Assembly (NCBI GenBank): GCA_021770755.1
Contig: JAETQI010000017.1
Location: forward strand, 1-64,000
Length of the DNA stretch: 64,000 nucleotides
Direction of reading: 5' to 3'
Source of the DNA: Lachnospiraceae bacterium
GTDB taxonomy: Bacteria; Bacillota; Clostridia; Lachnospirales; Lachnospiraceae
Made by a program: the position numbers and the translations under genes
In this document: positions 5,734-59,362 of the stretch, one piece after another
Layout of the letters: each line of letters opens with the position of its first letter
Numbering within the stretch: the first letter of the stretch is position 1
The notes under the pieces: model-generated
The model's input: only the letters and a program-made list of their open reading frames with translations
The model's database searches: none
Told to the model about the DNA's origin: nothing

Positions 5734-5764
5734 AAAAGGCAGCAGATTTTTCTGTTGCCTTTTT
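5734..5764 (+). terminator. Rho-independent terminator after the DUF4854-like lipoprotein gene
   Basis: A stem formed by GGCAGCAGA and CTGTTGCC with one mismatch, a short T loop, then TTTTT. The structured repeat begins directly at the end of this T-run. Confidence 0.8.
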
Positions 5765-5902
5765 GCACACGGGCACCCAACGGAAACATGTCAGCAAAGG
5801 CTGACGGGTGCCCGGCGCACGGTAGGGGAAAAGAGCATTCCCCTACGCGATTACACAGACCCGTGCAAAGGAAATATGCCGCTAAGGCGGCGCACGGGTG
5901 CC
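5765..5902 (+). repeat. Structured intergenic repeat, copy 1 (two units)
   Basis: Unit A (5765-5820) starts GCACACGGGCACCC and folds as CGGGCACCC / GGGTGCCCG enclosing the unpaired AACGGAAACAT and an inner hairpin GTCAGC-aaag-GCTGAC. It is followed by a separate hairpin GTAGGGGAA...TTCCCCTAC, then CGATT. Unit B (about 5859-5902) folds as ACCCGTGC / GCACGGGT enclosing AAAGGAAATAT and GCCGC-taa-GGCGGC. The same architecture recurs at 59261-59362, and a 5' half recurs at 6395-6422. Stem sequences differ between units but pairing is kept. Confidence 0.8.
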
Positions 5903-6360: not shown

Positions 6361-6392
6361 AAAATCCCATCCCGGCAGATGGGATTTTCTTT
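6361..6392 (+). terminator. Rho-independent terminator after the PH-like gene
   Basis: AAAATCCCATC and GATGGGATTTT form a perfect 11-base stem around CCGGCA, followed by CTTT. The second repeat copy starts immediately after it. Confidence 0.85.
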
Positions 6393-6394
6393 AT

Positions 6395-6422
6395 GCACAC
6401 GGGCACCCGTGCAGAGGAAATA
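6395..6422 (+). repeat. Structured intergenic repeat, copy 2 (5' half only)
   Basis: GCACACGGGCACCCGTGC followed by AGAGGAAATA matches the 5' arm and conserved GGAAA bulge of the other copies. The inner hairpin and 3' arm are absent: the sequence runs straight into the ribosome binding site of the next gene. It looks like a truncated or partly overwritten copy. Confidence 0.7.
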
Positions 6423-6443
6423 TTTTCAAAGGAGGACAAACTG

Positions 6444-59221: not shown

Positions 59222-59259
59222 AAAAAGCGGTCAGATACGAAAGTATTGACCGCTTTTTA
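59222..59259 (+). terminator. Terminator after rsfS
   Basis: AAAAAGCGGTCA and TGACCGCTTTTT form a perfect 12-base stem. The third structured repeat begins two bases after the T-run. Confidence 0.93.
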
Positions 59260-59260
59260 T

Positions 59261-59362
59261 GCACACGGGCGTTCAGAGGAAAAATGTCAGCATGCGCTGA
59301 CGGACGCCCGGCGCACAAGTAGGGGAAGAAGAGGCTCTTCCCTACTCGATTGCACACGGGCG
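59261..59362 (+). repeat. Structured intergenic repeat, copy 3
   Basis: GCACACGGGCGTTC starts the 5' arm; it pairs with GGACGCCCG around AGAGGAAAAAT and GTCAGC-atgc-GCTGAC. Then follow the GTAGGGGAAG...CTTCCCTAC hairpin, CGATT and the start of a second unit (GCACACGGGCG) that breaks off. Against copy 1 the outer stem has changed on both sides (ACCC/GGGT to GTTC/GGAC), keeping pairing with one G-T pair. Confidence 0.8.

Follow-up and report, generated by a model that had tools for sequence, protein, structure and literature searches.

The window, a stretch of 64,000 nt that was analysed as a whole, carries copies of a short structured repeat that behaves like a group II intron at its target and shares the 3' end of some such introns. 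We put at about an even chance the interpretation that this repeat is a miniature, non-autonomous, domain-V-less retroelement allied to group IIC introns and moved in trans. Each unit opens with G[CT][AG]CA, continues with a stem that holds an unpaired AGAGGAAA-like bulge and an inner hairpin, and closes with a further hairpin ending CTACTCGATT; 57 of 78 complete first units measure 87-89 nt, within a range of 78-102 nt. The stems belong to two families, alpha with GGGCACCC or GGGCGTCC arms and a GTCAGC inner hairpin, and beta with GACCCGTGC arms and a GCCGC inner hairpin, which have in common the AGAGGAAA-like unpaired bulge and the same following hairpin, gamma (CGAGTAGGGG..CCCCTACTCGATT). 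The tie to group II introns was absent from the preliminary description of this DNA, which had proposed either a mobile REP- or MITE-like element or a read-through RNA structure.

Reading of the sequence located the element at the places given in that description (5765-5902, 6395-6422 and 59261-59362). Copy 1 is a complete unit (5765..5852, plus strand) with an alpha stem, a CGGAAA bulge and a hairpin ending CTACGCGATT; the covariance model R1 matches it at C65:5758-5861 (105.7 bits, E 1.0e-19), and its insertion target is an intrinsic-terminator-like hairpin with a T-run, read from the sequence 3' of the upstream gene (5738..5764, plus strand). Stacked behind it is copy 2, a beta unit (5853..5899, plus strand) whose stem is whole and whose terminal hairpin is missing, covering 47 of 87 unit positions by path assignment. 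A terminator-like hairpin followed by TTTTCTTTAT, also read from the sequence (6361..6394, plus strand), is the target of a 5'-anchored, 3'-truncated unit fragment that was found by 5' motif scan (6395..6423, plus strand). The remaining place lies between two convergent genes, named by reading as rsfS and lexA, where a terminator-like hairpin with TTTTTAT (59227..59260, plus strand) precedes copy 3, a complete unit (59261..59351, plus strand) with an alpha stem, a AGAGGAAAAAT bulge and a hairpin ending CTACTCGATT (R1 match C65:59254-59360, 107 bits, E 5.2e-20). Copy 3 is followed by the opening 11 nt of a next, truncated unit (GCACACGGGCG; 59352..59362, plus strand; 11 of 88 positions by path assignment). 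The design proposed earlier is borne out in these copies, namely an outer stem, an unpaired GGAAA-type bulge on its 5' side, an inner hairpin, a linking GTAGGGGAA hairpin and CGATT.

Copies are numerous in the host genome (4.74 Mb, 122 contigs). A blast search with one window place gave 57 matches among the best 40 candidates scored, and R1, which was built from 19 units, gave 125 matches at E <= 0.01 among the best 150 candidates, the weakest of which may be chance, at 105 sites. The scan of this genome and its relatives with a covariance model, proposed earlier as a check, thus recovered many copies beyond those in the window. Among relatives, R1 matched 35 of 78 genomes at E <= 0.01 (36 of 79 with the own genome; 32 of 38 in the genus), with counts per relative taken from the best 50 candidates each, and a wider scan at E <= 1e-4 with the best 13 candidates per genome recovered the element in 27 of 299 genomes of the family and 26 of 298 genera, the own included. 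Among 84,980 species genomes the exact gamma pattern was present in 21 stretches, and the titles of their records all name Lachnospiraceae or Eubacterium. The same pattern gave 0 stretches in viral contigs, and phage carriage was rejected as a candidate on this result. In one Lachnospiraceae contig (L288) four tandem gamma matches follow one another every 87 nt. Free-standing gamma-like hairpins occur around G000:C96:7740 (L147) and C25:15850 (L106), the former with CGATTTTT on both strands and looking like an ordinary bidirectional terminator. Complete first units of the host genome have a median pairwise identity of 0.81 (alpha) or 0.85 (beta), and 5 of 51 alpha and 5 of 27 beta units have a relative at >=0.97 identity; on average, the copies in this genome are not young. 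Among the best-matching titles and abstract beginnings, in mostly openly accessible literature, there was no prior description of such an element.

The pairing of the unit was evaluated on an alignment of 64 units from relatives, including other genera and one other family, which leans towards the model structure because it was fitted to that model. In this alignment 96.8% of cells pair and 22 of 29 pairs changed two-sidedly, with 201 cells changed on both sides compared with a shuffled mean of 47.1; 0 of 500 shuffles reached 201, and slid controls fell to 20-32 cells. The stems therefore covary, both arms changing together, as had been claimed from the few units of the window. One locus from another genus (L074) has entirely different stem sequences and an unchanged plan. 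On the plus strand G.U pairs outnumber A.C pairs by 98 to 32 when one flanking U-G pair is omitted and by 68 to 32 when the most variable pair is omitted too, an excess that the fitted alignment favours and that suggests the plus strand as the folding strand. A known RNA family was rejected as an identity for the element, since the window has no Rfam match at gathering scores and a permissive search of five loci produced, over the units, only chance-level matches (E 0.87 and worse) far below those scores.

The 5' end was compared over 99 sites, at which the first base is G in 94, the second C or T in 96, the third A or G in 97, the fourth C in 95 and the fifth A in 93; the start sequences include GCACA (56), GCGCA (26) and GTACA (4). 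Just before the unit the seven bases usually read TTTTTAT: position -1 is T at 96 of 99 sites and position -2 is A at 85 of 99, so that the element starts directly 3' of TTTTTAT and not, as first described, within 0-3 bases of a T-run. A hairpin with dG <= -8 kcal/mol abuts this T-run at 65 of the 99 sites, a figure that is probably low because some terminators that the eye can recognise escape the hairpin test; a further 5 sites have one of -5 to -8 kcal/mol, and 29 a weaker one or none. Among control T-run sites, 300 sampled in each class, such a hairpin was present at 23% of intergenic sites on the same strand, 11% on the other strand, and 15% and 10% of coding sites. The fraction of hits that start at terminators, which the preliminary description had asked for, is thus 65 of 99 against 10-23% of controls, and the excess over the 23% of same-strand intergenic controls indicates that terminators are preferred and not required. 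The statement that the element is always placed at a terminator stands for the window, where reading shows a terminator at all three places; genome-wide it does not, with 29 of 99 sites having, by this test, no hairpin or one weaker than -5 kcal/mol. Elements 3' of terminator-like hairpins at G000 C16:1917, C16:25080, C1:17471 and C110:7505 have just downstream of them genes named by reading as rimM, rnc, mnmE and uppS, which are usually cotranscribed. A T-box leader (L002:1209-1475; Rfam, 109.5 bits) lies upstream of an element site on contig C64. At the other end, 40 of 105 sites have their 3' limit within two bases of a unit CGATT, 40 inside the first stem and 19 inside gamma, with 6 having no recognisable 5' start; 59 of 99 copies end inside a unit, that is, are 3'-truncated.

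The element is oriented along the G-excess strand (positive GC skew) at 100 of 105 sites, and the G-rich strand is the lagging-strand template. This bias is not a by-product of gene direction, because 25 of the 26 copies whose nearest upstream reading frame runs opposite, as called by a simple custom caller, are still on the G-rich strand. The same 25 copies point to replication-linked insertion and make the read-through RNA that had been offered as the second possibility somewhat less probable.

Evidence for insertion comes from copies inside genes. A pattern scan of the retrieved loci, covering 88 units, found 4 between long open frames, 2 of them in phase, a number that chance alone could produce. 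The first in-phase copy interrupts a gene of the PD-(D/E)XK family (PDDEXK_9 in the downstream piece), where the filled site reads GAGCG-TTTTTAT/89 nt/CACGGG (slashes mark the junctions), and uninterrupted paralogues in the same genome read GAGCG-CTTTTAT/CATGGC (two) and GAACG-TTTTTAT/CACGGA. From this comparison, exactly G..CGATT was added, give or take one T, with no target duplication and nothing lost. The second in-phase copy is in a gene for an FtsX-family permease (FtsX in the downstream piece), for which 0 uninterrupted relatives were found. Dispersed copies, an exact insertion point and uninterrupted paralogues support the earlier proposal of a mobile, non-autonomous element that targets terminators; the label MITE-like does not fit an element with no terminal inverted repeats (its ends are GCACA and CGATT) and no target duplication. 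Several PD-(D/E)XK paralogues with a PERFYHGFVLG motif are present in the one genome (L172 and L100; G000:C44, C19), and two of these paralogues share their contig with a Y1 transposase frame that contains two stops.

Between the genomes G015 and G037, which are 99.7% identical over 392 kb, no indel read corresponds to an element copy; the indels read measure 11, 35, ~215 and ~333 bp, in addition to a replaced stretch of ~2 kb that was examined at its ends only. The comparison of empty and filled sites suggested earlier thus gave no element indel between these strains, and was answered by the same-genome paralogues, which show a clean insertion. The ~215 bp stretch (L254:10483-10696 in G037, compared with L234 in G015) is present in one genome, has a strong inverted repeat (GGGTTATACCCC..GGGGTATAACCC) and is perhaps a different small mobile element. 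At the rsfS-lexA site the element is absent in those relatives that could be read, and in the loci of relatives such as L174 and L176 a terminator is present there on its own; these loci are too diverged to give exact insertion ends. By reading, 3 of the 19 G037 copies looked at share their position with a copy in G000. One such pair, upstream of a gene named by reading as lon, consists of G000:C48:58796 (L118) and G037:C57:73138 (L259); the element occupies the same place in two diverged species, with its pairing decayed in one, and shows that old insertions can persist at orthologous sites.

Units are frequently stacked head to tail; of the 99 sites with a 5' end, 55 consist of a single piece, 33 of two and 11 of three, partials included. 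Among 15 arrays unit 1 is closer to the consensus than unit 2 in 11, farther in 3 and tied in 1 (sign test p 0.057), and 38 of 44 arrays end in an incomplete piece; both observations favour stacking. That the first unit is complete in all 44 of these arrays follows from the method itself and carries no weight. A 5' motif scan found 45 5'-anchored fragments among the matches listed, some of them chance, and such fragments first suggested target-primed reverse transcription with abortive 3' ends. This interpretation was dropped, because stacking by the T-run with decay, and selection to keep the terminator, explain the fragments equally well.

A search of the host for reverse transcriptases returned two strong matches and a third below the cut-off, and both strong matches lie within group II introns (Rfam group-II-D1D4-3, 119 and 139 bits). 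The C15 intron, 1866 nt in length, is located 3' of an apparent tRNA end and a terminator with TTTTTTTA, and element units follow it without a gap. The 3' end CTACT[CT]GATT is present in 6 of 9 introns read (C15, C38, G007:C122, G019, G035 and G001), and these ends were set by hand from this motif, in part on account of the likeness to the element. The introns G036 and G023 and a second one of G007 have different 3' ends. The G007:C122 intron lies directly 3' of a terminator and TTTTTAT, the element's own target, and among the six readable intron 5' flanks one has exact TTTTTAT, others have TTTTTTTA, TTTTTCATTT, TTTTTCTT and CTTTTCAAT, and one has no T-run. From their place behind terminators, together with general knowledge of the class, we infer that these introns belong to class IIC. 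According to the portions of the literature consulted, class C introns insert immediately 3' of Rho-independent terminators (PMC8919778, PMC4424553) and prefer the lagging-strand template (PMC8919778), and the structure of a Eubacterium rectale IIC intron indicates recognition of a DNA stem-loop, a spacer and a CTTT/T target (PMC10190682).

In some introns the likeness extends to the terminal hairpin. In 9.2 kb of intron sequence, R3, a model of the gamma hairpin of the element, matched domain VI of G007:C122 (L277) with 16.9 bits (E 0.026), followed by domain VI of C15 (E 0.14) and of G019 (L279; E 0.21), with a chance-like match next at 0.25. For domain VI of C38, G035, G001, G036, G023 and the second G007 intron the E value of R3 was above 2 or there was no match; three of these six introns end CTACTCGATT. 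An nhmmer scan of 1.59 Mb of own-genome stretches and 8 intron pieces ranked L277 sixth (E 0.0011) and L279 eighth (E 0.038) outside element sites, and several of the other matches there look like element fragments. By local alignment the hairpin's best match in the C15 intron is its last 16 nt (p ~0.05, 300 shuffles), and against L277 the p value was ~0.003, the minimum obtainable from 300 shuffles. The end of the element resembles the CUACUCGAU-like 3' terminus of domain VI, the similarity lying in the 3' strand of the hairpin, and judged by sequence the 3'-terminal hairpin appears to match the end of domain VI (..CCTACTCGATT) in some group II introns of the same genus.

No other part of the element has significant similarity to the introns by local alignment, p values of the 5' half ranging from 0.15 to 0.82 for the C15 intron and from 0.19 to 0.99 for four other pieces. 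A likeness of the GGAAA bulge region to the start-codon region of the intron is attractive by eye and was rejected as not significant, and a likeness of the bulge to the maturase-binding arm is unsupported because the 5' half has no significant similarity. The position that we take to correspond to the bulged branch-point A is paired in 61 of 64 units; by reading, the A of CCUACUCG is partnerless in the introns with an R3 match and opposite a U in the element. The domain V model RF00029 did not match the element among the best 150 of 367 candidates, where the C38 intron was over the cut-off and C57 weak (E 0.10), an imperfect test because the C15 intron was also missed. The permissive Rfam search of five loci matched the introns and a T-box, and its D1D4 models matched only two introns and none of the element. 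The 5' consensus of group II introns is GUGYG, in place of which the element mostly has GCACA, GCGCA or GTACA. Because it gives no match to domain V or the D1-D4 scaffold, does not open with GUGYG and pairs its putative branch A, we do not class the element as a group II intron; the class IIC traits present are the terminator and T-run target, the lagging-strand template, clean insertion and the domain VI-like terminus.

To account for these traits, we hypothesise that the RNA of a core-less unit with an intron-like 3' end would be reverse-spliced by a group IIC ribonucleoprotein acting in trans, whose reverse transcriptase would copy the inserted unit RNA into DNA, the RNA intermediate, the supply in trans and the splicing being steps that we infer. 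New copies would land beside the T-run, pushing older copies outward, and could also land behind the terminal hairpin of an older copy. Since the terminal hairpin together with its CGATT resembles a hairpin followed by T-rich sequence, it would provide the next landing site and arrays would form, the outermost copies decaying from the 3' side. RVT_1, a profile that is not specific to group IIC, is matched in 16 of the 21 genomes that have >=10 R1 matches and in 10 of the 17 below that number (Fisher p 0.31), and its Spearman correlation with R1 number was 0.28 (p 0.09), uncorrected for relatedness, genome size and completeness and with R1 numbers from the best 50 candidates. RVT_1 presence therefore relates weakly to element number, and Y1 slightly better. 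No RVT_1 match was found in G011, G031 and G032, each >=91% complete, despite 16, 13 and >=50 R1 matches; in such genomes old copies could have outlived their driver, or the bins could be without mobile genes, arguments that would excuse the absence and do not count as evidence.

A bolder proposal, which we advance only tentatively, is that the elements are bacterial counterparts of group III introns, ~88-nt RNAs that use a resident group IIC active site and protein in trans. Their own ribozyme core would have been wholly shed, the intron's active site and protein being borrowed for DNA insertion and possibly for splicing from transcripts, and the GGAAA bulge may serve as a docking site for the protein or as a pairing guide to the T-run. 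If this is true, the element would represent, in a form alive today, a stage midway from group II introns that are self-contained to introns that depend on a common spliceosome-like machinery. It would also be a parasite that lacks domain V and exploits a bacterial retroelement much as SINEs do.

The main rival to a group IIC-allied retroelement is a single-stranded DNA element of the REP/IS200-IS605 type, for which a Y1 (HUH) transposase would cut after a T-rich target on the lagging-strand template and paste hairpin DNA, and the likeness to intron ends would be convergence on hairpin-plus-T targets. IS200/IS605 elements have a T-rich 5' target, no target duplication, lagging-strand-template orientation and hairpin ends, all shared by the element, and Y1 (PF01797) is somewhat commoner in element-rich genomes: of the 21 genomes that have >=10 R1 matches 14 have it, compared with 6 of the 17 below that number (Fisher p 0.10; Spearman correlation with R1 number 0.37, p 0.02, uncorrected for relatedness, genome size and completeness, R1 numbers from the best 50 candidates). 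The host itself has two Y1 frames; one is free of stops, sits at the end of a contig and does not cover the first 12 positions of the profile, and the other is interrupted by two stops. However, within 8.8 and 12.1 kb around these two places there is no R1 or R2 match, the flanks read there have no unit-like ends, and five genomes with 26 to 44 R1 matches (G006, G012, G014, G030 and G034) have no Y1 match. A Y1 transposase also leaves the matching domain VI end unexplained and does not alone explain the preference for terminators, and we consider this origin rather doubtful.

It is improbable, in our estimation, that the element combines a group IIC-like target and hairpin with machinery of its own, either a small ribozyme RNA or a protein of another kind. 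The strong pairing constraint, the conserved unpaired bulge common to two unrelated stem families and the weak relation to RVT_1 would fit such a system, for which there is so far no candidate gene. Selection for a functional RNA or DNA signal at gene ends (read-through control, an mRNA 3' end, a protein sponge or a replichore-oriented signal) could likewise produce the stem covariation and the 100 of 105 orientation bias, and would be in keeping with the 3 of 19 G037 copies at the places of G000 copies, one of them upstream of lon. However, copies inside two reading frames, 3'-truncation of 59 of 99 copies, the lack of a copy at readable rsfS-lexA sites and a patchy distribution across genera (26 of 298) make a signal of this kind very improbable.

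Hairpins behind terminators can be mobile elements rather than regulatory RNA, and should be interpreted with this caution. A high-copy bacterial family that has the IIC target, strand and 3' end and no core would offer a tractable test of whether a group II ribonucleoprotein can serve core-less RNAs in trans, a step that has been proposed on the way to the spliceosome.

Among known systems, BOX-type repeats consist of modular units in variable number, and the element resembles them in modularity and is unlike them in its fixed insertion target and orientation. REP sequences with their RAYT proteins (IS200/IS605) are short, dispersed, hairpin-forming and mostly extragenic with a T-rich target, as is the element; unlike them, it has no Y1 gene near the copies looked at and its end matches an intron. 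The element does not keep a ribozyme, in contrast to the ORF-less group II introns of Thermosynechococcus elongatus, which reportedly retain theirs with domain V. It is like those introns non-autonomous and multi-copy, and the sections consulted of one study describe their mobilisation in trans by the protein of a related intron (PMC2882425). With group IIC introns it has in common a target of terminator hairpin and T-rich sequence and the lagging-strand template, traits described for these introns in the parts of the papers cited above, and the CTACT[CT]GATT end found in 6 of 9 introns; it differs from them in measuring ~88 nt, in giving no match to D1-D4 or domain V, in having no ORF for a reverse transcriptase, in pairing its putative branch A and in its 5' GYRCA.

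The closest known kind is the group III intron, which the element resembles in unit length (57 of 78 at 87-89 nt), in having no domain V match and in its domain VI-like end, and from which it differs in being bacterial and mostly outside genes. The stem with a GGAAA bulge has, to our knowledge, no counterpart in group III introns; compared with the introns as a possible DI-like remnant, the 5' half of the element has no significant similarity, and the gene copies that bear on splicing are the two in-phase ones only. A paper on bryozoan mitochondria is said to speak of group III introns as well. In the excerpts consulted of one review, the group III introns of Euglena chloroplasts are ~90-120 nt long, may keep only DI and DVI motifs, are without domain V, occur in many copies and are thought to share machinery in trans (PMC4424553). 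The same excerpts describe degenerate introns without domain V from Euglena chloroplasts, and predict that few bacterial ORF-less introns have been overlooked unless their domain V is unlike known ones (PMC4424553).
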